Shown here: positions 29,111 to 47,045 of the stretch, piece by piece
Position numbering within the stretch: position 1 is the first letter of the stretch
Layout: every line of letters starts with the position of its first letter
DNA from: Candidatus Omnitrophota bacterium
Lineage (GTDB): Bacteria; Omnitrophota; Gorgyraeia; Duberdicusellales; 4484-171
Assembly (NCBI GenBank): GCA_028692655.1
Contig: JAQUWY010000012.1
Coordinates: forward strand, 1-47,367
DNA length: 47,367 bases
Direction: 5' to 3'
Notes under the pieces: model-generated
The model's input: the letters and a program-made list of their open reading frames with translations, nothing else
Databases searched by the model: none
What the model was told of the DNA's origin: nothing
Position numbers and translations under genes: made by a program

Positions 29111-30361
29111 TTAGCCGGTAAACCAAGAAACATTTTCGGGATGATAAACGCCATACAATTGAGAAGGAAGGTACTGGGAGCTTGGATTCTGCACAATAAC
29201 ATTACGCTCCCTATGAACAGCCAAAGGAACATTGGCCTTAAGGCTTCTTACTTCGACATCAAACACATAATTGCCGGGTAATAAATTATGCTTTTTCAAT
29301 ATTATTTTAACGCTATCTTTGGAATTTTTAATAGAAAAACCCTGTTTATCAGAAAAAACAGAAAAGCATTTTAGACCATCGGCTTTTCTATAGACAGTAA
29401 AGGAAAAGGTTACATCATCCATGGGATAGGATACCGTATCATATGAAAATTTAATCTCTATATTTTGTAGATAATTCAATTTTATGCATCCTTCTATTAA
29501 TTCTGCTCCTTTGAATTTTACTTTCTCTAAAATGACGCCTCCTCGTGGCTTGGAAGCCGGAACATTACCTGCACTTGTCCAATTCATCTTTTTAGATACT
29601 TCAGCTTCATATACACTGACGACTTTCTCTGGGGATCCCTCAGCGTCTATGCCTCCATCTCTAAGCAAAATAACCCTGTCGCAATAATTAACTATGTGTG
29701 ATAAACTATGTGACACCATAACAATAGTTGTCTTGCTTTTCTTTAAACTATTCATATATTCAAAACACTTACGTTGAAACGTAAAATCTCCGACAGCCAG
29801 CACTTCGTCTACCAATAAAATTTCAGGCTCAACGTGAACGGCTATAGCAAAACCCAGCCTCACGAACATTCCGGAAGAATATCTCTTAACCGGGGTATCG
29901 ATGAATTTCTTATAATCATAGAGTCCATACCCTGCAAATTCAACTATGGAATCAAATTTTCTATCAATCTCTTTTTTCTTCATTCCCATGATGGCCCCAT
30001 TTAAATATATATTCTCTCTTCCGGTAAAAAGAGGATGGAAACCTGCTCCTGCAGCTATAAGGCATGACACACGCCCTTGAGTTACAACCTCGCCCTCGTT
30101 TGGCTTCATAATCCCCGCTAATAGTTTTAAGGTAGTAGTCTTACCGGCTCCATTGTACCCAATGATACCCAGCGTTTCTCCTTTTTCAACTTTGAAAGAT
30201 AAATTTTTAAGCGCCCAAAATTTTTTGTCCGGGAAAGAACCTTTTTGGAATCGTTTAAAAATTAAAGGGATAGCATCACGCAGCAGGGATGCCTTTTCGC
30301 CGCGCTGGAAACTTTTTGAAACATTACAAAATTCAACAGGATATTTCATTATAGATAGCAC
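29111..30361 (-). CDS. wzt: ABC transporter ATP-binding protein for polysaccharide export, with C-terminal carbohydrate-binding-like domain
   Basis: LGIIGYNGAGKTTTLKLLAGIMKPNEGEV; RYSSGMFVRLGFAIAVHVEPEILLVDEVLAVGD; about 150-aa beta-rich C-terminal extension as in Wzt. Confidence 0.92.
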   Translation of the reverse strand: MLSIMKYPVEFCNVSKSFQRGEKASLLRDAIPLIFKRFQKGSFPDKKFWALKNLSFKVEKGETLGIIGYNGAGKTTTLKLLAGIMKPNEGEVVTQGRVSCLIAAGAGFHPLFTGRENIYLNGAIMGMKKKEIDRKFDSIVEFAGYGLYDYKKFIDTPVKRYSSGMFVRLGFAIAVHVEPEILLVDEVLAVGDFTFQRKCFEYMNSLKKSKTTIVMVSHSLSHIVNYCDRVILLRDGGIDAEGSPEKVVSVYEAEVSKKMNWTSAGNVPASKPRGGVILEKVKFKGAELIEGCIKLNYLQNIEIKFSYDTVSYPMDDVTFSFTVYRKADGLKCFSVFSDKQGFSIKNSKDSVKIILKKHNLLPGNYVFDVEVRSLKANVPLAVHRERNVIVQNPSSQYLPSQLYGVYHPENVSWFTG

Positions 30362-30409
30362 TTTTTAGAATAAAAAATATTCGTTTTCTTTTAACAGATA
30401 TGCAAAAGA

Positions 30410-31231
30410 TCAAATATTTTCTGCAAACAAATGCTCTTTTTTATGAAACCAAAATAAACTTATAAAAAAAAGGCAAAAGCATAAAGATACAGCAATGGCC
30501 AGCTCTGTAAAATTAGGCAAGCGACCACGTAATATCAAATCCCTGTAAGCATTAATTATTGGTATCATTGGATTCAAACCAACCATCACTCCCTGCAACT
30601 GTTTTGAACCCATTTGTATAGGATAGATAACCGGCGTTACAAACATCATAAGCGGAACTATGCCTGAAACTATATAGCCAATATCTCGATAGAAAAGGTT
30701 TCCCATAGACAGAAATAAAGCCAATCCTGAAACAAAAATAATTTGAATAAACAAAATCAACGGCACTGCCAAAATGGCAATATGCAGCTCAATATTGTAA
30801 ATCACCATTAAAACTATCAAAAAAATTGAGGCTATCACTAAATCTATTACCTTGGATAAAACTGAAGCCAAAGGTATTATCGCCCGTGGAAAATATATTT
30901 TGTCTATAAGAGATGCGTAATTAACAAGGCTTTGTGTGGACGCATTCAAGGAACCTGCAAAAAAAATCCAGGGCAAAAGGCCGCAATAGACAAATATCGG
31001 ATAAGGGATACTTCCTGTATCAATGGTAATTATTTTTGCCTTATGGATAAAAGCAAAAATAATCATACTTGTAAAAGGAATGAATATAGCCCAAACAATT
31101 CCCAAAAAAGTTTGTTTATATTGAACTTTAATGCCTCTGGTAGTTAACTTAAACAGTAATTCCCTATACTTGAATAACTCTCTTAGTATCTCGAATAAAT
31201 TCTCAGCTTTCTTTTCTTGTCTTGGAACCAT
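30410..31231 (-). CDS. wzm: ABC-2 type polysaccharide export permease
   Basis: YKQTFLGIVWAIFIPFTSMIIFAFIH; six TM segments; NPMIPIINAYRDLILRGRLPN; adjacent to wzt. Confidence 0.92.
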   Translation of the reverse strand: MVPRQEKKAENLFEILRELFKYRELLFKLTTRGIKVQYKQTFLGIVWAIFIPFTSMIIFAFIHKAKIITIDTGSIPYPIFVYCGLLPWIFFAGSLNASTQSLVNYASLIDKIYFPRAIIPLASVLSKVIDLVIASIFLIVLMVIYNIELHIAILAVPLILFIQIIFVSGLALFLSMGNLFYRDIGYIVSGIVPLMMFVTPVIYPIQMGSKQLQGVMVGLNPMIPIINAYRDLILRGRLPNFTELAIAVSLCFCLFFISLFWFHKKEHLFAENI

Positions 31232-31919
31232 AATAATAGTAGTAGTAATAGTGGCTTCTGCGCATGTTAACTTTATTAAAGATTATCCCCGCGACGTCAC
31301 TCTTGACATCATAAAGCATACTCATCGCACGCAGGACAGCTTCCCGCGGAGTTTTTTCTGCCATAACCACCATAAAAATAATATCTGCCAATAAGCTTAA
31401 TATAATTGAGTCAGTAACTGCCAATATGCAGGGCACATCAAGTATAACTATATCGAAAACATTCTTAACCTCTTCTAAAAACAACTTCATTTTATCTGAA
31501 CCTATTATTTCTGAAGGATTATGCGGTATGGCCCCACTTGTAATAACATGCAGATTGTCTACTCCCGTGTTTTTTAAAACTTTATCCCACTCTAATGTGC
31601 CATAAAGCACCTCGCTTAAACCCTGTGCTTTATCCATTCCCAATATGCCATGCACACTGGGACGCCTAAGGTCGCAATCAACCAACAAAGTTTTCTTGCC
31701 TATCTCGGCCATAACAATCGCTAAATTAGTACTGGTAAGGCTTTTACCTTCTTCGGGATGAGCGCTTGTAAGTAAAAGCACCTTTGGTGGATTTTTGAGA
31801 TTACTGCTAAGTATATTAGTGCGTATTGAACGATAAGACTCAGCTTCCGGAGAACGGGGGTCTAAATTAACAACTACTCTTTTATTGAAGGATGAAAAAA
31901 TATCTTTTCTTTTATCCAT
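31203..31919 (-). CDS. CpsD/CapB-type BY-kinase with C-terminal poly-Tyr tail
   Basis: Walker A SAHPEEGKS; Walker A' LLVDCDLRRP; Walker B VILDVP; C-terminus SHYYYYYYYGSKTRKES. Confidence 0.92.
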   Translation of the reverse strand: MDKRKDIFSSFNKRVVVNLDPRSPEAESYRSIRTNILSSNLKNPPKVLLLTSAHPEEGKSLTSTNLAIVMAEIGKKTLLVDCDLRRPSVHGILGMDKAQGLSEVLYGTLEWDKVLKNTGVDNLHVITSGAIPHNPSEIIGSDKMKLFLEEVKNVFDIVILDVPCILAVTDSIILSLLADIIFMVVMAEKTPREAVLRAMSMLYDVKSDVAGIIFNKVNMRRSHYYYYYYYGSKTRKES

Positions 31920-31963
31920 GTAAGTTTACACTCATTTTGTTTGCGGATAGACCTTGAAAAATC

Positions 31964-33346
31964 TCAGCGCCCCCTGTAAACATGCCGGCTTTTTTTGCCG
32001 TCACTTCTGATAAAAGGAATGACCCCGGTAATCGGCTTATGGAGATAATACTCTATATCTTCTAAAGTCTTTAAAGATGTATCTACGTTTTCCTGTATAA
32101 ACGCGGCTGTTATTCCTAAAATCAAACCTAAGGATATAGCCACTACAGCCGCCGGCACACCTTGCGTTTTCTCCGGCTTTTTAGGCTCACTCGCCAGGCG
32201 AAGAATCCTGACTCTAGTAGCATTTAGCACTGTGTCCAGGCGTAATTTTTCTCTTTCTTCTGCCAGTTTATTGTAAGTTTTTTCATCCAGGCTAAGCTCT
32301 CTGGTCAACTGGAGCACTCTGGAATCAGAGTCAGGCTCGCCGGGCTCCTGGTTAGAAACCACAGGAAAACGCGTCTCCAGTACCCCTTTGGCAGTTTCTT
32401 CGGCATTTTTATATTCTAAAATCTGTGCCTGCAAATCTTCCAAAGGCTTTAAAGCCTCTTTTTCGATTTCCTTGTTAATATTTTCCAGCGTCATCCTGGC
32501 CTCTATAACCTTAGGATGCTCCTCGGTAAACTGGACTAATAATGCTGACAGCTGGCGCTGGAAAAATACTAATTTATCTTTAAGCTTTATAAGCTCTTTT
32601 GACTGAGGCACTATTGCCAGGATATCTTCATCCGATTCCCGGGAAGCGACCCTTTCTTCCAACACCTTAAATTTGGCTTCAGCCATTTGCCTGCTTAGCT
32701 TAGCATTTATGTAGTCCTGTTGCAATTTCTCAAGTTCTCGCGCTTCCGCAGAGGACACTCCTGCATCTTCATATTTAGTATAACCGGGAAGATTGCTCTT
32801 GGTTTCTTCCATTTTCCTTTTAACAGCTTCCATCTGCCTCTCCATATATCTTATGGAAGCCTGCGCGCCCCCCGTCATACCCTTGAGGCTCTGTTCAACA
32901 ACAACCTGAGCAGTTATATTTGCTATTTCCATAGCCTTTCTTGGGCTTGCGGATAAAGCGCTAATTACCAAAATATCAGTTCCTTTTTCCTGTTCTACCA
33001 CTACCGAATTGAGTATTCCTTCTGGTGTTATATCTGACAATTCCGCTCCAGCCAAATCTCCGCCCATCCTCAAAGCTTTTGTTTTCTCAAACTCCATATA
33101 CCTTATTACTTCTTCAGCCAATGCATGTGTCTTAGCAAACCTCTGGATAGATTCTAATAGCTCTGTGTTGTAGGGAGAACCTTCTATTATAATAAAAGCG
33201 CTTGCTCTATAAACTACCGGTTTTGAAGGAACAAATAAAATGCTCGCAACAAGCACAACTACTACCGATAGAATAACGACGGCTTTCCTTTTGATTATAA
33301 TCTCAATATAATCTCTTAGGCTTACTTCTCTTTCTCTTTGTTCCAT
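31964..33346 (-). CDS. polysaccharide co-polymerase (Wzz/GNVR chain-length determinant), no kinase domain
   Basis: N-terminal TM (AVVILSVVVVLVASILFVP), long coiled coil, second TM (AAVVAISLGLILGITAAFIQE). Confidence 0.88.
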   Translation of the reverse strand: MEQREREVSLRDYIEIIIKRKAVVILSVVVVLVASILFVPSKPVVYRASAFIIIEGSPYNTELLESIQRFAKTHALAEEVIRYMEFEKTKALRMGGDLAGAELSDITPEGILNSVVVEQEKGTDILVISALSASPRKAMEIANITAQVVVEQSLKGMTGGAQASIRYMERQMEAVKRKMEETKSNLPGYTKYEDAGVSSAEARELEKLQQDYINAKLSRQMAEAKFKVLEERVASRESDEDILAIVPQSKELIKLKDKLVFFQRQLSALLVQFTEEHPKVIEARMTLENINKEIEKEALKPLEDLQAQILEYKNAEETAKGVLETRFPVVSNQEPGEPDSDSRVLQLTRELSLDEKTYNKLAEEREKLRLDTVLNATRVRILRLASEPKKPEKTQGVPAAVVAISLGLILGITAAFIQENVDTSLKTLEDIEYYLHKPITGVIPFIRSDGKKSRHVYRGR

Positions 33347-33354
33347 GGCGGTGT

Positions 33355-35400
33355 TTATTTCCCTAATTTAGATATTCTTTCGTTAGCGTCTTTTACCAAC
33401 TCCGGGCTAGAGCCCCCATCAGAAATTACCTTCATAAACATTTCCTTAGCCTTATCGCTGTATCCCAAGTTCAAATAACAAAGGCCAATCTGGTAATATT
33501 CCTGCCCATCACTTGAGTTTTCCGCAAGATCCAATATCCTTTCATACATATCAATAGCTTCCTGAAATTTATCTTTTTCATACAAACAAAAGGCTATATT
33601 ACGCATAGCTGATAACGCAATGGGATGATCGGGATAGCCATCGGTTAGCTTTTTATACTCCGCAATGGCTTTATCCAGTTCTCCCATATCAAGGTATATT
33701 GTGCCTCTCCAATAGTAAGCATACGGTACCCAGCGGCTCTTAGGATACTTCTTGAGTAAATCCGCATAAGCATTAAGAGCGCCTACGTCTTCTCCTAAAA
33801 TATCCCTACACCCTGCCATATAATATTGAGCACTGTCGGATTTTTGGTTACTGGGAAACTCCAGCAGAAATCTTAAATATGCATCCATCGCCTCCCTGTA
33901 CTCTCCACGGCTATGCAGCACTGCGGCTCTCTGATACAGAGTTACAGGATCCCTGGAGCTAGCTTTTAAAAGTATAGCTACAATAACCACCAGCAACAGG
34001 CTGCCGGCTATAACGGCTATTTTGAAAGACCTAAAATTTATTTTTTTAGCCTTATCTATTAAAAGTTTAAGCAGTTTATCAGCATTGAGCTTTTCTTCCA
34101 TACTTAAATGATCTGAGTTTTTTCCTGCCAAAGCTGCTATTTCCTGAGGGCTTTTTGTTGGGCCTATAATTTTGTGTATTCTATCATCTAAATCTTTTCT
34201 TTCCGGATGGCGCGAGCCGCTGACCGGTCCGAAAATAGTTAGAATAAAATCAATGCCGCTATCGATAAGGACCGGATCTCTTAATCTGTTCTGTTTAAGA
34301 ACGAACTTTATTCTTTTTATGCCTGTTCCTAACTTCTCGATATACCTTCCTGTATGCATAAGCATTTCGGTAATTAGTTTATTTCTTGAGTATTGCGTAT
34401 ATTCCATATTGGCTACAGTTATACCGTCTGCAAGCCCGCCCGGAGTGTATATTTCTATACGGTCATCAAACATAAAAACACGCACTTGAGAAGCCTCTAT
34501 GCCATAATCTCTGTGTACTATAGCGTTAGCAATGGCTTCTCTAACCGCCACCTCGGGATACTCGGTATAATCATCCCGCTTGAGCCCTTCTATCTTAGCT
34601 CCTACATTCATATGCTTGAGAAGAAATTCCCAAGCCTGGTCTATCATCTCCGGTATAACGCCTCTGGCTTCTTTCTGGTCGACAATGACGCTACCTATGT
34701 TTTTTCCTTGAAATCTCACCAGGCGTACTCCACTGAAACTAATAAAATACTGTGGATTCCTACCAAACATCAATAGTGCAGCGGCTGTAGGCACAAGTTG
34801 ATTTGCGCCTTGCGTAAGAATGCCTTTATCCGTAAAAACTTTTTCTTTATTCCTAACCGCTTTATCTTCTTCCAGGGCTTCTATACTCTTAAGATATTTA
34901 TCTACTTTGCCAGAATCTAAATCTTCCCGGGTGGCTGTTTCTACCGGCCAATTATCACTGCCGGCTCTTCTAAAAACTACGGCCTTCCTATACATGTTTT
35001 GAATTTCACCATGACTTGCCACGTATACCTGTTTATCTAACCTGACATAGCAGTCTCCCTCAGCACAATAGGGCCTCTCCATGCCTTTACTTACTTTAAC
35101 TATTCCTATCTGAACTTCGCCTATTTTTTCTAATGAAACTTCAGGATTCGTTGATGGCTTGCAGTATTTTTTATCAATCTCGATTACATCGTTTACATTA
35201 TAAGAAGGGCTTAGGCCGGTTATTTTGCGAGTGCTTTTATCTACTCCTATAAAAATAAAACCGTCGCCTGAATTAGCAAAAGCTACCATAATTTTAGCCA
35301 GTTCTTTTTTATCACTTTCCGTATAAGGCGGCTTTTTCACCAACTCCAGATTCTGGCTGTTTCCTTTAGTAATAAATTCTAAGATCTCTTTATTAGTCAC
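33355..35400 (-). CDS. AlbA/Schlafen-like domain + HATPase_c_4 + TM helix + TPR repeats
   Basis: QNLELVKKPPYTESDKKELAKIMVAFANSGDGFIFIGVD (AlbA_2); AVREAIANAIVHRDY...IEIYTPGGL (HATPase_c_4); TM FKIAVIAGSLLLVVIVAILLKA; then several TPR units (VTLYQRAAVLHSRGEYREAMDAY..., PYAYYWRGTIYLDMGELDKAIAEYKKL...). Confidence 0.85.
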   Translation of the reverse strand: MTNKEILEFITKGNSQNLELVKKPPYTESDKKELAKIMVAFANSGDGFIFIGVDKSTRKITGLSPSYNVNDVIEIDKKYCKPSTNPEVSLEKIGEVQIGIVKVSKGMERPYCAEGDCYVRLDKQVYVASHGEIQNMYRKAVVFRRAGSDNWPVETATREDLDSGKVDKYLKSIEALEEDKAVRNKEKVFTDKGILTQGANQLVPTAAALLMFGRNPQYFISFSGVRLVRFQGKNIGSVIVDQKEARGVIPEMIDQAWEFLLKHMNVGAKIEGLKRDDYTEYPEVAVREAIANAIVHRDYGIEASQVRVFMFDDRIEIYTPGGLADGITVANMEYTQYSRNKLITEMLMHTGRYIEKLGTGIKRIKFVLKQNRLRDPVLIDSGIDFILTIFGPVSGSRHPERKDLDDRIHKIIGPTKSPQEIAALAGKNSDHLSMEEKLNADKLLKLLIDKAKKINFRSFKIAVIAGSLLLVVIVAILLKASSRDPVTLYQRAAVLHSRGEYREAMDAYLRFLLEFPSNQKSDSAQYYMAGCRDILGEDVGALNAYADLLKKYPKSRWVPYAYYWRGTIYLDMGELDKAIAEYKKLTDGYPDHPIALSAMRNIAFCLYEKDKFQEAIDMYERILDLAENSSDGQEYYQIGLCYLNLGYSDKAKEMFMKVISDGGSSPELVKDANERISKLGK

Positions 35401-35433: not shown

Positions 35434-35772
35434 TTATCTGATTTTCTCATCGATTACCCGCCTGCGTTCCACTCGCAAGCTTCCTTTTACATACGACTTC
35501 CAGGAATTTGCTATACCATGCATGGGTTTGTAGATTTTTTCAAACGCGAAGTCGTCTAGAGCACTATAATCAACTTTATCTCTCCTATACGCAGAAGTTA
35601 CGGAAGAGGCTTCCTCTTCTGCCTGGCTGACTAAAGCTTCATAACGCATCCTCATCATGGGTAATTTCCTGGAAGCATAACTGATAGTTGCTCCCGTAAA
35701 AAAGCATACAATGGTAATAATGATATAGATAAAAACTGTCATCTTTTTTCTTTTGCTCTCATATTTTTCCAT
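35434..35772 (-). CDS. small membrane protein, unknown function (112 aa)
   Basis: One N-terminal TM segment TVFIYIIITIVCFFTGATISYA, charged remainder; no family recognised. Confidence 0.6.
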   Translation of the reverse strand: MEKYESKRKKMTVFIYIIITIVCFFTGATISYASRKLPMMRMRYEALVSQAEEEASSVTSAYRRDKVDYSALDDFAFEKIYKPMHGIANSWKSYVKGSLRVERRRVIDEKIR

Positions 35773-35797: not shown

Positions 35798-36598
35798 TTA
35801 CCTGAATTTTTGGTCCTGCTCCAAGGCAATTCCCTGTTCTGTATGCTTCTGCATCCAGTATTTTAATTCATTCAAAGTTTTGTAAAAATCCGATATGCTG
35901 ACTTTTTTATCAGAGTAATACCCGCCGTATAATTTACTGCTGTTTATCTTTGCATAGATATAACCAAATATAGAACCTACCAAGATTCCAACGGCCGTAA
36001 CAATAAAATAAAAATTGTGAGTAATCTTTCTTATTTTTCTCAACATCCCTTTATGACGAAATGAAAAATTATTGTTGCCCAGGTAATATCCGCCTGGAAC
36101 CCCCTCTATGCCTTTCAGACTTTTAAACCTTTCTTTTATTTCTTCTTTAAATGAAATCTCTTTCTCCTGCTTTACTTCTTCCGGAGTCAACTCCCCGCTG
36201 AAAAACTTATCCATATGCTCGGTGTAAGGCAAAGGCTTTAAGTAACAACTCTGGATATGTTTAACCAGGCTTCTGAGATAGTCTAAGTCAAACGGTTTGG
36301 TAACATAATCAAAAACCCCTAACTCTGTTGCTTTTTTAACCGAGGTCATATCTCCAAAGCCGGTTATTATAATAAAGCGTGTTTTCGCATTATTTTTTTT
36401 CATTAACCTTACCGCTTCTACCCCGTTTAACCCTGGTAGGCATAAATCGACAAACGCAAGATCTACAGGCACTTTTTTAGTTATCTCCAAGGCCTCTTCT
36501 GCGCTATTGGCAGACAGAGTCTGGTGGCCATCAGCGGCAAACACCTTTGAAAGAAGCCTTGAGATTGAGATTTCGTCATCAACAATAAGAATTTTCAT
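35798..36598 (-). CDS. response-regulator receiver domain with C-terminal TM segment and no recognisable DNA-binding/output domain
   Basis: Receiver residues ILIVDDE, LAFVDLCLPG, IITGFGD, YVTKPFD; later TM FYFIVTAVGILVGSIFGYIYA. Confidence 0.85.
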   Translation of the reverse strand: MKILIVDDEISISRLLSKVFAADGHQTLSANSAEEALEITKKVPVDLAFVDLCLPGLNGVEAVRLMKKNNAKTRFIIITGFGDMTSVKKATELGVFDYVTKPFDLDYLRSLVKHIQSCYLKPLPYTEHMDKFFSGELTPEEVKQEKEISFKEEIKERFKSLKGIEGVPGGYYLGNNNFSFRHKGMLRKIRKITHNFYFIVTAVGILVGSIFGYIYAKINSSKLYGGYYSDKKVSISDFYKTLNELKYWMQKHTEQGIALEQDQKFR

Positions 36599-36624: not shown

Positions 36625-37860
36625 CTATTTATACACAGGTAACTTTATGATAAACGTTGTCCCTTTACCGAACCGTGACTCCACCTCTATGGTTCCATTG
36701 TGCAAATCCACGATATGTTTACAAACAGCAAGGCCTAAACCCAGGCCTTGAGGTTTACGAGTACTGAAAAACGGAATAAATATATTGTCTATAACATTAG
36801 CCGGTATTCCCCGGCCAGTATCGCTAATCAATACCTCTGCCATATCTTGAGTTCCTGCCATTTTAGTTTTAATAGTCAATGTCCCGCCGGCAGGCATAGC
36901 CGCTTTAGCATTAAATATTACATTAAATATAACTTCTCTAAACTCATCTAAACCGACAATCACGTTTTTTACATTAGAATCTAAACCCAAATCAATTTTT
37001 ATGCCCTGTTTGGTAAAATTGTTTTTTGCCAATTCAACCACCTGTCTTATTGAATCGTTAACATCAACGGCTTCTTCCTTTTTCTCCAGGGGGCTGCAAT
37101 ATTTAAAAAGCCTTGCAATTATCCGAGAGGAAAGCTGGGCAGCTTCTTTTACATCGTTAATCTCTTCCCAGCCGAAATCACCCTTATGCATATGTTCCAT
37201 TAAATACTGAGCATTGCCTATTATAGTTGTCAAAGGATTGTTAATTTCATGAGCTATACCCGCAGAAAACTGGCCCAAAGCAGCCATTTTTTCTTTTTCT
37301 ACTAACTTTTTCTGCATGAGCCTTATCTCTTCGTTAGCTTTTTTTGTCTCCTCATAAAGCCTCACGCTCCAAATAGATATAGCTGCCTGGTTAGCCAAAA
37401 GCGATAACAGCCCCAAGTCCGGTTCAGAAAATAAGTTATCAGATACCGTATTGTTAAGATTGAGGACACCTATAACCCTTTTTTCCACAATCAGGGGTAC
37501 GCAAATCGAAGATTTTATGCTCTTTTTCTCATCTAAATGGCTGAAACGAGAATCATTTTTTAACCCCCCGACTAAAAGCAAAGGCTTTCCTTCTTTGGCC
37601 ACCCATCCTGATACATGCTCCCCGAGATTAACTTCTACTTTAGCGCAAACTTCTTCACTTAAACCTCTTGCCGCCTTAATCTTTAAAGTTTTGCTGTTTT
37701 CTTCAATCAACATCAAAGAACCGGAATCGGCTTTGAGTAACTCCAAAGATGCATCCAGTATCTGTTTTAAAAGCTTTTCTAAATTGAAAGCGCTCAACAT
37801 CTTTTTCGTAATATTAAGCAGCTCCGTTACATATTTTAATTCTTGTTTCTTTATGTCCAT
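36625..37860 (-). CDS. GAF-domain sensor histidine kinase, predicted soluble
   Basis: GAF region SLMLIEENSKTLKIKAARGLSEE; FSAGIAHEINNPLTTIIGNAQYL H-box; ISDTGRGIPANVIDNIFIPFFSTRKPQGLGLGLAVCKHIV. Track start 37902; ATG at 37860 (MDIKKQE) looks more plausible. Confidence 0.9.
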   Translation of the reverse strand: MDIKKQELKYVTELLNITKKMLSAFNLEKLLKQILDASLELLKADSGSLMLIEENSKTLKIKAARGLSEEVCAKVEVNLGEHVSGWVAKEGKPLLLVGGLKNDSRFSHLDEKKSIKSSICVPLIVEKRVIGVLNLNNTVSDNLFSEPDLGLLSLLANQAAISIWSVRLYEETKKANEEIRLMQKKLVEKEKMAALGQFSAGIAHEINNPLTTIIGNAQYLMEHMHKGDFGWEEINDVKEAAQLSSRIIARLFKYCSPLEKKEEAVDVNDSIRQVVELAKNNFTKQGIKIDLGLDSNVKNVIVGLDEFREVIFNVIFNAKAAMPAGGTLTIKTKMAGTQDMAEVLISDTGRGIPANVIDNIFIPFFSTRKPQGLGLGLAVCKHIVDLHNGTIEVESRFGKGTTFIIKLPVYK

Positions 37861-37916
37861 ATGTTTAAATTTATGAGTTAGACAGAACACATGTCTAATC
37901 AAAATTTTAGGTAACC

Positions 37917-38360
37917 CTATCTTTTCTTCTTCTCAAAAGTTTTAGGAGGCAAGCTGCCTACATCATTCCTATGCGCGGGGCTGGAATCAGTTATCTTACC
38001 GCTTTGACTGTCCATATATGAATAAGAACCGTCAGTACGTTTTTTTAGCACTCCTGTCTTTACGCCATCAGCATTGTAATAATTATAGGCTCGTTTATCC
38101 TTCTTATCCTGTTTCACCTTCCCGACCAAATTACCATGGCTATCATAATAAAAAATATCTTCTCTAATCTTCTTTGAAGAACCGGTTTTTTCTTTTGTTT
38201 TTTCATTATAGAAATCATATCCGCCATCAGCGTTTTCTTTGGTTTCTCCTGCCGGTTGTTCGGTGACTTGCCCAAAAGCATTTGCGGCCATTACACAAAC
38301 TGCTATACAACAGAACACAAAATATTCCGCGAGTTTATTTAGCCTTTTTCCAATCAACAT
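37917..38360 (-). CDS. secreted repeat protein of unknown function
   Basis: Signal peptide FVFCCIAVCVMAANAFG; about four short repeats: YDFYNEKTKEKTGS / IFYYDSHGNLVGKV / YNYYNADGVKTGVL / YSYMDSQSGKITDS. Confidence 0.6.
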   Translation of the reverse strand: MLIGKRLNKLAEYFVFCCIAVCVMAANAFGQVTEQPAGETKENADGGYDFYNEKTKEKTGSSKKIREDIFYYDSHGNLVGKVKQDKKDKRAYNYYNADGVKTGVLKKRTDGSYSYMDSQSGKITDSSPAHRNDVGSLPPKTFEKKKR

Positions 38361-38370
38361 TAGCTCCTCC

Positions 38371-39393
38371 TTAACTTAAGGTATCTTTATCCTTGCTCTT
38401 CCAGGAGAACTTCATCTTTTCTAAATCGGAAACATCCAGGGGCTGGTCTATGTAAAAATATGTCTCTGTCATAAAATCCAGAGATTTAGAACAAGTCAGC
38501 CTCTCGCCCATATGGTTAAAGATTATATTGACCTTTGGCCTTAAAGGGTGGCCTTTATTCATCCCTGTTACCAGGCCTATCTCGCCAGTGCTAAGTTTTA
38601 CCCAGCTGCCCACCGGATATATACCTATATTATTAACAAAAGCCTTCATGATGCTGGGCTGAAAACCTAAAGCTTCCTGGTCTATTATCTCGCTTATCGC
38701 CTGATGAGGAGCCTTGTGTTTCTTGTAAGCACGCGAATGGGTTATTGCTTCATATATATCAGCAAGACTTAAGATTTCAGATATTTTATCCCGGGGCCCT
38801 CTATGATGATGAGTTTCTACCGCTAAGACCCCTTCGTCGCTAAGACAGCCCATTTTTTTTAAAATCTGCGCGCTATACCAGGAATGCTTTTCAACAAGCT
38901 TAATCTCTTCACCTATTAGCTTATCCTTTTTATTGACTATATTTTCCACCTTGACCATTCCTAAATCATGCAAAAATCCTGAAACCGCCAATTCCATAAG
39001 CTCGGATTTATTCAATCCTGCCCAGATGCCTATTTTTGTCGCCATCAGGCCCACATTTAAAGAATGATACGGCAAATAGCTCCCTTGATAAGAATCACGA
39101 TAAAATTGCAGAAAATACTCATTCTCGTTTATTAATATCGTTTCTACTAAGCTTTTAGAGAAATTAACTACCTCCACGGAAGAGGCAGCCTCGTCATTTG
39201 CAATTTTGCTCAGCACTCCCGTTATCAGAGAAATCCCTTCGCTGTACAGATTTGAATCTTCAATCTTGTGGCCTTCCTCCTGGGCCAAGCTGATTATCTT
39301 ATGCATTTGCATGTTTTCAACCAAAATTTTGCTTTCATTTTCCGGATTTTTTCTATCTCCGCTCATTTTAACAATATCACTTATTCTTATCAT
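38371..39393 (-). CDS. HD-domain (HD-GYP-like) phosphohydrolase, GYP motif degenerate
   Basis: SGFLHDLGMVKVENIV; KHSWYSAQIL; ETHHHRGPRDKISEILSLADIYEAITHSRAYK. Confidence 0.82.
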   Translation of the reverse strand: MIRISDIVKMSGDRKNPENESKILVENMQMHKIISLAQEEGHKIEDSNLYSEGISLITGVLSKIANDEAASSVEVVNFSKSLVETILINENEYFLQFYRDSYQGSYLPYHSLNVGLMATKIGIWAGLNKSELMELAVSGFLHDLGMVKVENIVNKKDKLIGEEIKLVEKHSWYSAQILKKMGCLSDEGVLAVETHHHRGPRDKISEILSLADIYEAITHSRAYKKHKAPHQAISEIIDQEALGFQPSIMKAFVNNIGIYPVGSWVKLSTGEIGLVTGMNKGHPLRPKVNIIFNHMGERLTCSKSLDFMTETYFYIDQPLDVSDLEKMKFSWKSKDKDTLS

Positions 39394-40196
39394 ATATAAA
39401 CCTCCTCAAGCACTTTTCCCACTACATCTTCATCTATAACTTTCTTTTCCTCAAACATCCCCTGCAAAAGTGACAGTTCACACATAGTATTTATACTGCG
39501 GGGGATACCCCTGGTGCCTTTTGTTATCATTTTAACCGTTGCCGGGCTAAATAGTTCTGAATCTCCTCCGGCAACCCGGCACCTATAATCTATATACTTA
39601 GCAACATCCTCTTCACCAAAACCGGTCAAATGGTAAGTTGTAGCCAATCTTTGCTTAAACTGCGGCAGCCTATCGATTTTTCTTATGAGTTCGGGCTGCC
39701 CCACAAGAAGCAAGGTTAACAAAAATTTATCATTCATCTGGAAATTTAGAAGAAGCCTTAGCTCCTCAAACATACTGCGGCTTTTTATCGCCTGGGCTTC
39801 ATCAACAATAACAACTGTTTTTTTGCCCTCGTTCATGCTCCTATATAACAACTCATTTAAACTATGAATCAACTTAAGTTTAGTTCCTTTTAGTAGTACA
39901 CTGTCAAATTGGAATATTATTTCTCTTAAAAAATCGTTAGAAGCAAAAGAAGGATTTACGATCAAAGCTACTTTATATTTATTACCTTCCTGCAAAAGCT
40001 TTTTTAAAAGAGCCCGAGTCAAGAGTGTTTTTCCTGAGCCGTATTCTCCGGTAAGCATAGCCGCGCCCCTATTCTCTTCTATACAGTAGCTCATCCTGGT
40101 TAAAGCTTCTTCGTGAGCGGCAGAAGCATACAGGAATTTAGGGTCAGGCGTATTTTCAAATGGTTTTTCTTTTAAGTTCCAATATTCTAAATACAT
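39390..40196 (-). CDS. AAA ATPase, ExeA/GspA-like (resembles the ATPase of PEP-CTERM/exosortase EPS loci)
   Basis: MYLEYWNLKEKPFENTPDPKFLYASAAHEEALTRM; LTGEYGSGKTLLTRALL; VVIVDEAQAI. Confidence 0.88.
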   Translation of the reverse strand: MYLEYWNLKEKPFENTPDPKFLYASAAHEEALTRMSYCIEENRGAAMLTGEYGSGKTLLTRALLKKLLQEGNKYKVALIVNPSFASNDFLREIIFQFDSVLLKGTKLKLIHSLNELLYRSMNEGKKTVVIVDEAQAIKSRSMFEELRLLLNFQMNDKFLLTLLLVGQPELIRKIDRLPQFKQRLATTYHLTGFGEEDVAKYIDYRCRVAGGDSELFSPATVKMITKGTRGIPRSINTMCELSLLQGMFEEKKVIDEDVVGKVLEEVYI

Positions 40197-41959
40197 TGGT
40201 TTAACACAATCCCGTTTAAAGGCTTATTTTTATAATTACCCTGAGAAGGATTCAGCCTTAGAATCGCCGATCTCACACTACTTTTGGAAGTCTTACCCGA
40301 CAAATAAACCATCAGAGACGCATCACATTCAGAAACAAGAGCTGAAATATCAGCACTGTGCAAAATCGAAGGCCCATCTAAAATAACATAATCAAACGTG
40401 GACTTAAACTCGTTTATTAACAAACGCATTCTCTCTGACCTTATAAGCCATGTTCCGTCGGAAACAGGAGAGCCTGAAGTAATAATCTTTAACCTATCCA
40501 ATCCCTTGAACTTGATAGCTTTCTCTACTCCCAAACCGCCTAATAAAAATTCAGTCACGCCGCATATAGCATCTTCAACGGTGACACCTTTATTCAGTAA
40601 ATCTGTAAAACCCGGCCTGCGGCCTTTGATACCAAAAAGAATGTTTATAGATGGGCTGGATAAATTAGAATCAATCAGTAAAACTTTCTTTCCAGACCTT
40701 GCCATAACCAAGGCTAAATTAGAAGCTGTTATTGTTTTACCTTCCCCCCTTTCAGCACTGGTAAAAAATATCGCCTTTCTATCAGAACCAGCGGTAAAAG
40801 CACCTGAACGAATATACGTATAAATAAGCCTATAAGGCTCTATCACACTATTATCACTTTCATATTCTAAAAGCAGATTACCTTTACTCTTTATCTTCAT
40901 TTCTCTTAGAGAAAAGGATTTAAAATAAGGAATAGTTCCTGCAACCGGAATATGCGTCAATGAAAACACTTCTTGTGCCGTTAACATAGCAGTATCCAAA
41001 AACACCGCTATCAACGCTGTAATCAGGCCCGCCAAAAAAGAAGCTGCAAACCCCATTACAAAAATAGTTCTTTTCCTGATTATATGGGTAGTAGCTACAG
41101 GCTTATCGGTATAGCTTATGACCGTAGCAGCGCCCTTTGTGTTTTTTAACTCTTCTATATTTTCTAAATTTACTTCATCCCAATTTTCTTTCAAGGTATT
41201 GTATATTTTCTGGGCATCCTTTAATTCTCTTTCTACTTTCAGGCGGCCGTCCGATTCCTTAGGAGAAACCTCAAGCCTTTTCTTTAGGGCAGTAATGGTA
41301 GCATCTATTCTGACTACGTCAGGGTAAGCAGGAGTGTATATTTTTAAAAAATCCTCCCGTGTTCTTTCCAATTCTGCCAGTTGAGCTTTCAATTCAGAAA
41401 CATTATCCACCACTCCCCGCTCTTGGTCCTGGATTCTCTCCATCTTCCCTTCAGATTCTTCCAGCTGTTTCTTAGCCTCTGCCAATTCCTTCTTCAGGCT
41501 GCTCTTATATTCTTCTGACGCTATCTCCTGATTCTTTATGATTCCCCTTTTAAGCTGGCTGGCTTTAGCATTTACTTCAAGCACATAAATATTGGCAATT
41601 TCCCTGGCTAACTTTGGAACTACATTGTAATCATTGCCCCTTAATGTAATCTCCATTATTCCGGAAGAAGCATCTTTATCTATAGAAATCTTATCTTTCA
41701 AAGAAGCTATGGAGCTGGCAGAACTTATCCTATTGAATTTACCAAGATTGCTCAAGACCCTAGAAAGCACCTCATCGCTCGTAGGCTCAATACCGAAAGA
41801 GTTCTCTAATTTTACAATTGCTTTAGCCTGGTATAAAGGCCTGCGTAATATGCCGTAAATGGAAGCGAAAACAAAAATCACCAGAAAAGGCACAATAAAA
41901 TAAACTTTCTTCTTATAAAACTTCTTTATAAAATTTTGCATTGTTTTCCTTTTACTCAT
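40187..41959 (-). CDS. fused PCP (Wzz-like) + BY-kinase-like domain; kinase motifs degenerate
   Basis: N-terminal TM and PCP region; coiled coil; TM2; Walker A SAERGEGKT; Walker A' reads LLIDSNLSSP; no C-terminal Tyr cluster. Confidence 0.88.
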   Translation of the reverse strand: MSKRKTMQNFIKKFYKKKVYFIVPFLVIFVFASIYGILRRPLYQAKAIVKLENSFGIEPTSDEVLSRVLSNLGKFNRISSASSIASLKDKISIDKDASSGIMEITLRGNDYNVVPKLAREIANIYVLEVNAKASQLKRGIIKNQEIASEEYKSSLKKELAEAKKQLEESEGKMERIQDQERGVVDNVSELKAQLAELERTREDFLKIYTPAYPDVVRIDATITALKKRLEVSPKESDGRLKVERELKDAQKIYNTLKENWDEVNLENIEELKNTKGAATVISYTDKPVATTHIIRKRTIFVMGFAASFLAGLITALIAVFLDTAMLTAQEVFSLTHIPVAGTIPYFKSFSLREMKIKSKGNLLLEYESDNSVIEPYRLIYTYIRSGAFTAGSDRKAIFFTSAERGEGKTITASNLALVMARSGKKVLLIDSNLSSPSINILFGIKGRRPGFTDLLNKGVTVEDAICGVTEFLLGGLGVEKAIKFKGLDRLKIITSGSPVSDGTWLIRSERMRLLINEFKSTFDYVILDGPSILHSADISALVSECDASLMVYLSGKTSKSSVRSAILRLNPSQGNYKNKPLNGIVLNQCI

Positions 41960-42785
41960 CTGTACTCATCTTGTCTATCTGAGTTTTATACTTCCACTGC
42001 TTATTCACACCGCCAAGGTGCCTTCTCCAGGTGTCACCGTAATAAGCTTCGGCATAAGTAACAACTTTGCCAAAAATATTATCCATAAACTGAGTAAAAT
42101 CAGCACTCATAGCCCTCGTCACATAAACTATATCTCCGGAACGCACTAAAACGTTTTCTTTAACGCGGCCATTCTTTAAAACCTGATTTGCATTCACCAT
42201 TATGACTAAGGGCTGCTCTTGGTGCACATCTCTTATAACAAAAACTTTATCCATATTAGCTTTGCTATAAACAAAGCCTCCTGCCAAGGCTACCGCCTCC
42301 ATAACGCTTGTGGGAGTATTGAAACGAATCACGCCTTCATCCTGGACATCTCCCACAACCACAGCCTTTTTTCCGCCAAACTCAAGAATATTTATAGAAA
42401 CTTGAGGTACCTTTATATAAAGCCTTATTTTATCTACTATATCATCCCGCAATTGCTCTATGGTTCTGCCGGCGGTTTCGACGTCCCCTATTAAAGGGAA
42501 AGATATTTTTCCGTCAGGCCTCACGACAACTTCTCTTTGCAACTCCTCAACCTGCCAAACAGAAATCTCCAGTATATCCCCCATAGATATAAGATAATTC
42601 TCCAAAGCCCATTCATCTTCTTGAAAATCTTCAGCCTTGATAAATTTTGCTTTTTTAGAATTTATCTTTTTTGTAGAACCATCTACTGCTTCTTTTTTCT
42701 GGGCTTTTGTATGCATGCAGCCGGAAATAAATAATAAGCCAAATAGAAAACCTGAAATTATAAATCGGCCAGTTTTAGGTTTCAT
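41952..42785 (-). CDS. outer-membrane polysaccharide export protein (OPX/Wza-like lipoprotein)
   Basis: Lipobox-like GLLFISGCMH; YLISMGDILEISVWQVEELQREVVVRPDGKISFPLIGDVETAGRTIEQLRDDI; SLBB-like region. Confidence 0.9.
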   Translation of the reverse strand: MKPKTGRFIISGFLFGLLFISGCMHTKAQKKEAVDGSTKKINSKKAKFIKAEDFQEDEWALENYLISMGDILEISVWQVEELQREVVVRPDGKISFPLIGDVETAGRTIEQLRDDIVDKIRLYIKVPQVSINILEFGGKKAVVVGDVQDEGVIRFNTPTSVMEAVALAGGFVYSKANMDKVFVIRDVHQEQPLVIMVNANQVLKNGRVKENVLVRSGDIVYVTRAMSADFTQFMDNIFGKVVTYAEAYYGDTWRRHLGGVNKQWKYKTQIDKMSTDE

Positions 42786-44868
42786 TGCTATAATACTTAT
42801 TACCGCAATAGTAGTATCCGCCCTTGGCCCCTTTTATTTTGTTTAATACTCCACCCAGAATATTAGCCCCGACATCCTTTAGCAAAAGTTTAGCCCGAGA
42901 GCCTGATTTTTTAGTGGTACTGCTGGCACAAATAATCAATATAGTCCCATCGGTCTTGGCGGATAGAACAAGGCTGTCGCTGACCGCAAGAATAGGGGAA
43001 GAGTCAACTATCACAAAGTTTCCGTCTTCATTTAAAGCAGTAATCAACTCTTGAGTTTTAGACGTTCCTAGGAGCTCATTGGGATTTGCAGGCATCGGCC
43101 CGGAAGGTATCACTTTCAGCCTTTCTAAGGTATCGGGGCAAGTTCTTATATCCTGCAAGGGCCACTCTCCTATAAGATAACTGCTTAACCCCTTTTTATT
43201 TTCAATAGCAAAATATTTATGAATCATGGGCCTGCGCAGATCTGCATCTACCAAAACCACTTTCTCTCCTGCCGAAGCTATGGCTATTGCAAGATTAGCG
43301 GATATAAAAGATTTTCCTTCTGATGGATTTGGGCTAGTGATAAGGATCGATTTTATTTTTTTACCGCCGCCCAAAAAAATTACATTCGTCCTGAGCATCC
43401 TGAAAGCTTCGCTGACTATAGATTTGGGATGGTTTAATGTAACCAGGCCTATATCTCCGGTTTTTTCTTTATCCGCATTTGCTTCCTGATGCCTTTTCCA
43501 AAGAGGCATAGTAGCTAAAACTTTCATATCCATGATATCTTCTACTTCCTCTACGTTTTCTATACAAACATTTATATGCTCCATGACAGCTACAGATATA
43601 CCAGCACTTGACAACGACAACAAAAAAGCGACTAACAAATATGTGCTCTTGCTGACCAACGGCCTTGCTGGCAATGCAGGAGCTTTTATTATTTTAAGAA
43701 AAGGAACATTTTGCACTTTATCAGCTATGTTTATGATTTGTAACTCATTCATAAAGTTATTATGGATGCTTTTTTTTACTTCAAGGTCCCTTTTTAAAGT
43801 ATTATACTCGACCATCTTATCACTTAAGCCTACATCTATTATTTCACGTAGCTTTCTCTCCTCTGCCGCTAACGACTTAACATTCATCTCTATACTTTGT
43901 ATGGCTCTATCTACCTCAAAGGCTATCTTTTTCTGGGCTTCTTCCACTTCGCCGGTTGCAGCAAGCGCGTCAGGATGTATTTCACTCTGTGTTATTAGCA
44001 ATCTGGACAACTCTCTTTCTTTCTCATAAAGAGTATCCCTTAACGTCAAATCCACTATCTTGGGATCCCGCTTGGCAATGGCCGTCAGAGCTAAAAGAAC
44101 ATCTTGGTCTCTATAGTTTTTAATTTCTTTCAAAAATGCTTCCTTATCCATCCTCTGAGATTTTAAAATCAAGTATTTTTCGTTTATCTGCGGCTCTCTA
44201 TCCAAGCGAGTTTTATCTACGCTATTGGTTTCTATTTCACTAGTACCCACTTCCAGTGCCCGCACAATGATTTCATTGTCAAGCAAGAATTTTGTAAGCT
44301 TTTCTTCGGCAACCTCTATCTCCCTGCGTTTTTGAGCAAGCTGTTTAGTTAAAGTTCCATACATATCATTGACACTCTTTAGCCGCCGCTCTTTAATGTC
44401 TTCCATATATACGGCTATTAATGCTTTCAGGACAAAAAAAGCTTTATAGCGGTTTGAACTTACTGCTGATATATCTACGATTTCAGAATTTGGCTTCTGC
44501 TTCACGCCAAGCATAGCTTTTACTTCTCCCGGTGCAACATTGACTTTATACTCTCCGTTATCCTTTAATCGCCCGGAAATATCTTCCGCGATGCTGTCGC
44601 TTCGTATTATTTCACTCTCGTTAGCTATTTTATATATTTCGTTAATAACAAAATCGTTCTCTTTCATTACTTGAACAGTCGGCTGAGTAATAATAACTCT
44701 TGCACTGGCTCTGTATTTTACTTTAAGCACAAAAAATACAAATAAAAAAGAAACTAAAAAACACGAGAAGAAAACTATCAAAAATATACGTTTTCTTTTG
44801 CACAATATCTCCCAATATTCCCTAAGGCCGAGTTCAATATTTCTTTCTAAATCAGCGTTTTCTGTCAT
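42775..44868 (-). CDS. Wzc-like fused PCP + BY-kinase
   Basis: N-terminal PCP with TM; TSPNPSEGKSFISANLAIAIASAGEKVVLVDADLRRP; FVIVDSSPILAVSDS; C-terminal Tyr cluster GGYYYCGNKYYSNET. Confidence 0.92.
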   Translation of the reverse strand: MTENADLERNIELGLREYWEILCKRKRIFLIVFFSCFLVSFLFVFFVLKVKYRASARVIITQPTVQVMKENDFVINEIYKIANESEIIRSDSIAEDISGRLKDNGEYKVNVAPGEVKAMLGVKQKPNSEIVDISAVSSNRYKAFFVLKALIAVYMEDIKERRLKSVNDMYGTLTKQLAQKRREIEVAEEKLTKFLLDNEIIVRALEVGTSEIETNSVDKTRLDREPQINEKYLILKSQRMDKEAFLKEIKNYRDQDVLLALTAIAKRDPKIVDLTLRDTLYEKERELSRLLITQSEIHPDALAATGEVEEAQKKIAFEVDRAIQSIEMNVKSLAAEERKLREIIDVGLSDKMVEYNTLKRDLEVKKSIHNNFMNELQIINIADKVQNVPFLKIIKAPALPARPLVSKSTYLLVAFLLSLSSAGISVAVMEHINVCIENVEEVEDIMDMKVLATMPLWKRHQEANADKEKTGDIGLVTLNHPKSIVSEAFRMLRTNVIFLGGGKKIKSILITSPNPSEGKSFISANLAIAIASAGEKVVLVDADLRRPMIHKYFAIENKKGLSSYLIGEWPLQDIRTCPDTLERLKVIPSGPMPANPNELLGTSKTQELITALNEDGNFVIVDSSPILAVSDSLVLSAKTDGTILIICASSTTKKSGSRAKLLLKDVGANILGGVLNKIKGAKGGYYYCGNKYYSNET

Positions 44869-45210: not shown

Positions 45211-45281
45211 TACTAATAGCTTATTAAAGATTAATAAAGTATAGTAAGCTATATTAATGTCTATTAAAGTATATTATCAAA
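45211..45281. repeat. 10-bp-phased direct-repeat array, consensus TATTAAAGTA (core TANTA)
   Basis: TACTAATAGCT / TATTAAAGAT / TAATAAAGTA / TAGTAAGCTA / TATTAATGTC / TATTAAAGTA / TATTATCAAA at 45211, 45222, 45232, 45242, 45252, 45262, 45272; TA-N-TA conserved in every unit; last six units spaced exactly 10 bp. Confidence 0.8.
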
Positions 45282-45296
45282 ATCCCAATTTGTCAA
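45268..45296 (-). promoter_or_regulatory. sigma70-type promoter for the BldC-like gene and possibly the EPS operon
   Basis: Minus strand: TTGACA (45296-45291), 17-bp spacer AATTGGGATTTTGATAA, TATACT (45273-45268). The -10 lies inside the decamer array. Confidence 0.75.
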
Positions 45297-46015: not shown

Positions 46016-46981
46016 CTAGAAAGAATAATCTAAAGCCGTTATTACTCTGTAGTCGTTCTTCTTAACTCCTGACAGCGGGTTCGAATCATACTCTTCGATA
46101 AGGGTAAAACGCAAAGCAAGCTTTTCATTTATAGGATTTATAAGAGAGGTTTCTGAATACAAACGATACTGGCCGCCATAGCTTAATGAAGGATATAGCT
46201 TCAAGTTTTCAGAAACTCTTAAGTTACCGATAAGCTTTTTATCTAGAAAAATCCTGGGTATAAGGACTGTTTGGCTTTTATCTCCGCCGCCGCTTCTATA
46301 ACTGGTATGTTCATACCCAAGGCCGCACTCCAGCAAAGCCTTAAAATCTTCCTGGTCAGAAAACCAATAGCCAGCTCCCAAAGAAGGAACGAGACGGTAA
46401 CCAATATCATTAAACCTGTCATGGTCACCCTCTATTTTTACAAAACGATACCATGATTTATTTTTGAAACTAACGGCATAACGAAGTAAGGCCCTCCATT
46501 CCTGAGTATCCATTTTTTTGTTTGATGAACCATAGTACGCGCTACCGCTAGCAGTAAATTCATCTGAATCGGTCTTTCGATTAAGAGAACCACTCACGTT
46601 CAACTGGCTTGTTTTGGTATTCCCCCCGCTTTCATCTGCCCCCAGAGAAAACTTACCTTCCCAGAGACAAGCCTTTTCGCTTTTTCCTTCTTCCCCCTTA
46701 GCCTCATTCTTACTTGCGACTTCCTTTTTCTTATCCGGTTCAATTTTTTCTATAAACTTTTTTTCGATATGAAGCCTGCCGGCAGCATTTGTATCAATAA
46801 CAGCTATTGAAGCATCTTCTCTAATTATCTTTCCGCTTATACGGTCTCCATTCTTTAAATGTATCTCTCCGGTGTAAGCCGAAACTGAAAAAGTTGAAAG
46901 TAAAAGTAATGGCAGTATTTGCCTGCTACAAACAGATATGCGCAATATGCGGTTTAAAAAAATTCTAATAATACTCCTCAT
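46016..46981 (-). CDS. DUF481-like outer-membrane beta-barrel protein
   Basis: GEIHLKNGDRISGKIIRED N-terminal domain then alternating beta-strand pattern (WEGKFSLGADESGGNTKTSQLNVSGSLNRKT ... DYRVITALDYSF). Confidence 0.8.
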   Translation of the reverse strand: MRSIIRIFLNRILRISVCSRQILPLLLLSTFSVSAYTGEIHLKNGDRISGKIIREDASIAVIDTNAAGRLHIEKKFIEKIEPDKKKEVASKNEAKGEEGKSEKACLWEGKFSLGADESGGNTKTSQLNVSGSLNRKTDSDEFTASGSAYYGSSNKKMDTQEWRALLRYAVSFKNKSWYRFVKIEGDHDRFNDIGYRLVPSLGAGYWFSDQEDFKALLECGLGYEHTSYRSGGGDKSQTVLIPRIFLDKKLIGNLRVSENLKLYPSLSYGGQYRLYSETSLINPINEKLALRFTLIEEYDSNPLSGVKKNDYRVITALDYSF

Positions 46982-47045
46982 GCCCAAAAAGCCACACGAT
47001 ACCTCTAGCTTTTAAGCCCTTTATCGATTAAGTTTTGATATCCTG

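Follow-up and report, generated by a model that had tools for sequence, protein, structure and literature searches.

Cytoplasmic modules of the AlbA_2/Schlafen type normally serve to cut RNA or to control genes. In the membrane regulators ToxR and CadC, a cytoplasmic winged helix is joined through a single transmembrane (TM) segment to a periplasmic sensor. AlbA_2 has been described as a DNA-binding domain (PMC6299218), the glutamates E205 and E210 are essential in SLFN13 (PMC5862951), and proteins that join a Schlafen RNase and a minimal histidine kinase to a winged helix-turn-helix (wHTH) are widespread and frequent in BREX loci (PMC12839542). For EPS loci of the XrtA/PEP-CTERM type, the described regulation set is PrsK-PrsR-PrsT (PMC1569441).

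We analysed a stretch of 47,367 nucleotides from a Candidatus Omnitrophota bacterium (contig JAQUWY010000012.1 of assembly GCA_028692655.1; the window), in which a gene with a GTG start on the minus strand, at 33355–35400, encodes a 681-residue protein that carries an AlbA_2-HATPase_c_4 pair, a TM helix and TPRs in one chain. AlbA_2-HATPase_c_4 proteins are a known kind; the variant with a membrane TPR arm is undescribed in the literature searched, as the preliminary description had supposed, and work on AlbA_2 and HATPase_c_4 yielded no protein of AlbA_2-HATPase_c_4-TM-TPR architecture.

Architecture and orthologues of the 33355–35400 protein

From the N to the C terminus, the protein comprises SLFN_AlbA_2, HATPase_c_4, a disordered linker, a single TM helix and about five TPRs. 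Both domains of the AlbA_2-HATPase_c_4 family were found in the sequence above their Pfam cut-offs: SLFN_AlbA_2 at residues 23–126 (35023–35334; E = 1.3e-16, 61.7 bits against a cut-off of 25.3) and the GHKL-like HATPase_c_4 at residues 304–389 (34234–34491; E = 2.2e-18, 66.5 bits against 26). An N-box with E288 and N292 lies just ahead of HATPase_c_4, and the GHKL motifs REAIANAIVHRDY, DDRIEIYTPGGL and EKLGTGIKRI are retained. The linker (residues 393–455; 34036–34224) is modelled with low confidence, has no winged helix and holds a conserved P-[TA]-K-[ST]-P-Q-E-I motif. Beyond the TM helix, matches to TPR families cover residues 483–680 approximately, above the curated Pfam cut-offs and with a best E-value of 4.6e-18; the array, five repeats with a capping helix (33361–33954), is predicted to be periplasmic.

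The sole strongly hydrophobic segment of the chain is residues 460–478, KIAVIAGSLLLVVIVAILL, with a Kyte-Doolittle score of 2.85 against 1.45 for the runner-up, and it falls within a helix at residues 456–481 (33958–34035) of an AlphaFold2 model; both agree with the TM position proposed earlier, at about 33961–34026. In the 20 residues N-terminal of this segment there are six K/R and two D/E, a charge bias that predicts a cytoplasmic N terminus and a periplasmic C terminus. The earlier suggestion that the TPRs lie across the membrane from the AlbA module is thus borne out as a prediction, from the single TM segment and the basic residues that precede it.

The full-length AlphaFold2 model has a confident AlbA_2 domain, the 456–481 helix and the five TPRs with their capping helix, with low confidence in the linker from residue 394 on; it was built on a shallow alignment and has a pTM of 0.37, with uncertain relative placement of the domains. 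A separate model restricted to the cytoplasmic part reached a pTM of 0.60. Its best structural match in the PDB was 3lmm (E = 2.7e-19), DIP2311 of C. diphtheriae, which was also the best sequence match (E = 1.9e-12), and Schlafens ranked next. The cytoplasmic model further matched the catalytic domains of kinases such as CusS and HK853, as well as those of pyruvate dehydrogenase kinases, at weak E-values (about 0.01). N-box and G-box motifs together with a kinase-like fold thus place the module among GHKL ATP-binding domains, with fold matches at weak E-values. Like the window protein, 3lmm and other prokaryotic Schlafen(AlbA_2)-HATPase_c_4-wHTH proteins have the two domains in the same order; unlike them, the window protein and its orthologues have a linker, TM and TPRs in place of the winged helix, have lost the first catalytic Glu and are linked to an EPS cassette.

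The complete architecture recurs in two full-length orthologues, of 674 residues (G034, 60% identity) and 687 residues (G053, 48% identity; another family of the same class). A third orthologue, G029, is 58% identical over its sequenced part and has AlbA_2, HATPase_c_4 and the TM segment, its contig stopping in the first TPR. The clade therefore has four members, three full-length (including the window protein, G000) and one incomplete. All four come from uncultured Omnitrophota; the one scan of genome contigs used a single sequence and so covered close relatives, and the protein may also occur in other phyla. In a sample of the phylum the protein occurs in 2/384 genomes (G000 and G053): matches to its cytoplasmic part have E-values of 1e-240 in these two and then fall to 1e-60, in proteins lacking a TM segment.

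HATPase is the most conserved segment, at 77% identity to G034 and 70% to G053, with AlbA_2, the middle region and the TPRs at 44–66% and the linker and TM at 23–27%. Synonymous sites are saturated or nearly so between the orthologues and the domains are still conserved, a pattern of substitution from which we conclude that the protein is conserved under selection; that HATPase is best conserved under saturated synonymous change argues for strong selection of its own. These comparisons also dispose of an assembly or frameshift artefact joining two genes, which had been named as one of the outcomes that would overturn the finding: the architecture is shared by two orthologues over their full length and by a third as far as its TM, and the domains are conserved while synonymous sites are saturated.

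The Schlafen active site and the C-terminal replacement

None of the 38 other, less related AlbA/HATPase homologues collected has a TM-like segment (hydropathy maximum 1.41), compared with scores of 2.39–2.85 for the clade on the same scan, and we accordingly rejected the idea that TM-bearing AlbA proteins form a larger group. Beyond the last ATP-binding motif, relatives with full C-termini have roughly 100–137 residues, compared with 312–316 in the clade. The C-termini of the soluble relatives inspected resemble winged helices, as judged by eye, and two viral relatives show HTH matches there, whereas no Pfam match was found in the clade linker (34024–34230 in the window), which thus does not class as a winged helix. 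On these comparisons of sequence, linker, TM and TPRs stand in place of the relatives' winged helix.

The catalytic site has changed as well. Pairing bacterial with animal Schlafen positions by motif reading, not by structural superposition, we found the first catalytic Glu replaced by N, C, C and P across the four members (absent in 4/4). In the window protein, N14 occupies this position and E19 lies just ahead of the AlbA_2 domain. The second acidic position is E, E, E and D, and the Asp of GVD/GAD is retained; the three-carboxylate site of Schlafen RNases (Glu-x4-Glu plus Asp) is therefore incomplete. Nucleic-acid binding or weak activity may remain through the retained second Glu/Asp and GVD Asp. 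The clade shares with the animal Schlafen RNase core (SLFN11/13/14) the AlbA_2 fold and a Glu/Asp at the second acidic position; unlike that core, it lacks the first essential Glu and has a GHKL module and a TM in the same chain. With the first Glu lost and the winged helix gone, the clade shows no sign of either known output, and this weighs against the earlier proposal that a working AlbA module is under the control of an envelope signal received by the TPRs.

The polysaccharide export cassette and TM-TPR proteins elsewhere

The gene lies within a cassette on the minus strand that begins with a Wzz-type PCP carrying a BY-kinase domain (42775–44868), an OPX polysaccharide export protein (41952–42785), a PCP with a BY-kinase-type ATPase (40187–41959), an AAA ATPase of the XrtA/PEP-CTERM-associated type (39390–40196; below the NCBI cut-off), an HD-domain protein of the cassette core (38371–39393) and a small conserved protein with a hydrophobic N-terminus that is likely exported (37917–38360). 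It continues with a histidine kinase, GAF-HisKA-HATPase_c (36625–37902), a TM-bearing response regulator (35798–36598), a small single-TM protein of 112 residues (35434–35772), the AlbA-HATPase-TM-TPR protein, a PCP (GNVR; 31964–33346), a BY-kinase with a C-terminal Tyr cluster (31203–31919) and a Wzm/Wzt-type ABC exporter encoded by two genes (29111–31231). Gaps of 33 and 8 bases, the latter before the PCP gene downstream, flank 33355–35400 and are consistent with its co-transcription with its neighbours. The best promoter-like site, TTGACA-17-TATACT, precedes the cassette in the same orientation (45268–45296) and is a consensus match only.

OPX, PCP, BY-kinase and exporter genes in one operon mark an OPX/PCP-type EPS export locus, the setting proposed in the preliminary description. 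The co-occurrence with BY-kinases and OPX, which it had put forward for checking, held in other Omnitrophota: the gene order is identical in all four genomes as far as each contig extends, across two families, and the protein is strictly linked to the histidine kinase, the TM-bearing regulator and the small TM protein. The operon has three PCP/BY-kinase sets (40187–44868 and 31203–33346), two fused and one split. The likely exported protein at 37917–38360 has repeated YDFYN/YYDxxG-type motifs, kept in three genomes, with no confident family. Upstream, on the cassette strand, a DUF481 protein (46016–46987) has a weak match to a Leptospira-type N-terminal domain, and in G029 an unassigned ORF of 127 residues that immediately precedes the first PCP gene (L032, 4558–4941) looks PilZ-like by eye.

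The response regulator consists of a receiver, a C-terminal TM and a predicted periplasmic tail, with no DNA-binding domain; its expected phospho-transfer residues D7, D8, D51, T79 and K101 do not vary among four genomes. The tail, DFYxTLNxLKxWMxKHTEQG, is conserved in the four genomes, and an output domain is absent. The 112-residue protein has a TM and a tail related to those of the regulator, and matches no Pfam or NCBIfam family. The regulator's TM-bearing tail was found in the same 2/384 genomes of the phylum sample, G000 and G053, and in 3/37 genomes of the family (G000, G029 and G034), the AlbA protein occurring in the same three; the pair is thus rare and travels together. On inspection, distant matches to the tail in G367 and G131 belonged to unrelated genes, whose neighbourhoods are housekeeping and type II secretion-like.

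An EPS locus in which genes for a kinase, a regulator and a TPR protein lie close together, with an XrtA-type ATPase, PCP, OPX and a kinase nearby, recalls PrsK-PrsR-PrsT. Unlike PrsR, the cassette regulator has a TM and neither a sigma-54 nor a Fis domain, and unlike PrsT, the TPR protein is no lipoprotein. Matches to TIGR02916 (PrsK) and TIGR02917 (PrsT) reached 121.5 bits against a cut-off of 300 and 31.4 bits against one of 312.2, so the cassette does not class as a Prs set; all XrtA-system NCBI models score below cut-off in it, and in Pfam the regulator is a receiver only. The exosortase family PF09721 was absent from the draft genomes G000, G034 and G029 and present in G053.

The pair of XrtA-type ATPase and HD genes recurs across Omnitrophota, and in G295 and G368 the gene that directly follows HD specifies a protein with a TM segment at its N terminus and TPRs behind it, without AlbA. 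G316 has a related copy beside HD that is broken or shortened; this gene (L098, 9022–9486) seems to be interrupted by a stop, possibly a frameshift or pseudogene. In G185, judging from match positions alone, a TM-TPR match lies about 0.7 kb from the HD match on the same contig and strand. A TM-anchored TPR protein thus occurs at the same place elsewhere in the phylum, and the unusual element of the fusion is the AlbA-HATPase part, which looks added later. The similarity of the window TPRs to those proteins is weak (2e-6 to 1.5e-11); plausibly, we infer, TM-TPR is a standard cassette component and AlbA-HATPase a later graft. The periplasmic TPR proteins CpoB and BamD resemble the clade in the type of TPR array, with scores below the NCBI cut-offs, and differ from it in that the clade TPRs are joined, by way of a TM, to an ATP-binding module in the cytoplasm.

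Candidate roles of the protein

Our leading reading, to which we would give slightly short of an even chance, is that the protein is an inner-membrane, ATP-switched scaffold that couples a phosphorelay to polysaccharide export, and not an RNase or a DNA-binding regulator. The conserved block of export genes around it suggests recruitment to run the export machine, and since the winged helix and a catalytic Glu are gone and two neighbours also have a TM joined to a cytoplasmic end, we favour a membrane complex that would pass the state of the phosphorelay on to the export apparatus. In the mechanism we infer, the TPR arm would hold the PCP/OPX export apparatus on the periplasmic side and the ATP-binding module inside the cell would serve as a switch that depends on nucleotide or as a platform for docking, with the Schlafen domain serving as a binding module rather than an RNase. 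Whether the tethered regulator is phosphorylated would be conveyed to the AlbA-HATPase protein by contact in one membrane complex, of which the small TM protein may also be part, and the complex would determine post-translationally how the PCP/BY-kinase export complex assembles or how active it is. Against such a scaffold, BY-kinases alone could regulate export. A more specific version, which we hold to be rather unlikely in all its parts, is a two-component pathway that dispenses with a transcription factor, in which a soluble histidine kinase would phosphorylate the tethered regulator, and a transmembrane complex of regulator, small TM protein and Schlafen-GHKL-TM-TPR protein would switch export on or off by its ATP state; the Schlafen fold would then have been turned from RNase to signalling or docking.

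An outside-in one-component regulator, in which the TPRs sense the state of the envelope or of export and AlbA_2 binds DNA or RNA in the manner of ToxR and CadC, would accord with the predicted N-in/C-out topology and single TM, with AlbA_2 as a DNA-binding domain (PMC6299218) and with the winged helix of the soluble relatives. Yet that winged helix, the DNA-binding part of the relatives, is exactly what the clade is missing, and in the operon the protein does not stand alone but has a kinase and a tethered regulator beside it; with a histidine kinase and a TM-ended regulator as neighbours, an inside-out phosphorelay fits at least as well. The clade shares with ToxR and CadC a cytoplasmic module, a single TM and a predicted periplasmic part, and falls outside their class in lacking the winged helix and having AlbA_2-GHKL as its cytoplasmic part. 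We consider this regulator a doubtful candidate.

If instead the TPRs were a plain export scaffold, with AlbA-HATPase a mere anchor or stability element of little function of its own, the TM-TPR proteins without AlbA that adjoin HD genes in other families would be their natural counterparts; it is hard to reconcile this with HATPase being the best conserved part despite saturated synonymous change, and we regard it as improbable. Least probable is a membrane-tethered Schlafen RNase, whose activity would be released when the TPRs sense envelope damage or phage entry, with the export locus as sentinel. The frequency of Schlafen RNase-minimal histidine kinase-wHTH proteins in BREX loci (PMC12839542) and partial matches of PADLOC models to the region speak for it, but the first catalytic Glu is absent in 4/4 members, no defence genes were recognised in the neighbourhoods read, and the linkage seen across two families is to export genes. 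We set aside the PADLOC and PHROG matches, since shared domains alone explain them.

We found no tests of surface polysaccharide regulation in Omnitrophota in the literature searched. For these organisms, the clade, which keeps the ATP-binding fold and is tied to an export operon, suggests that a phosphorelay may control polysaccharide export post-translationally. Schlafen-type modules have been studied as RNases and defence effectors, and the clade suggests a non-defence use of their fold.
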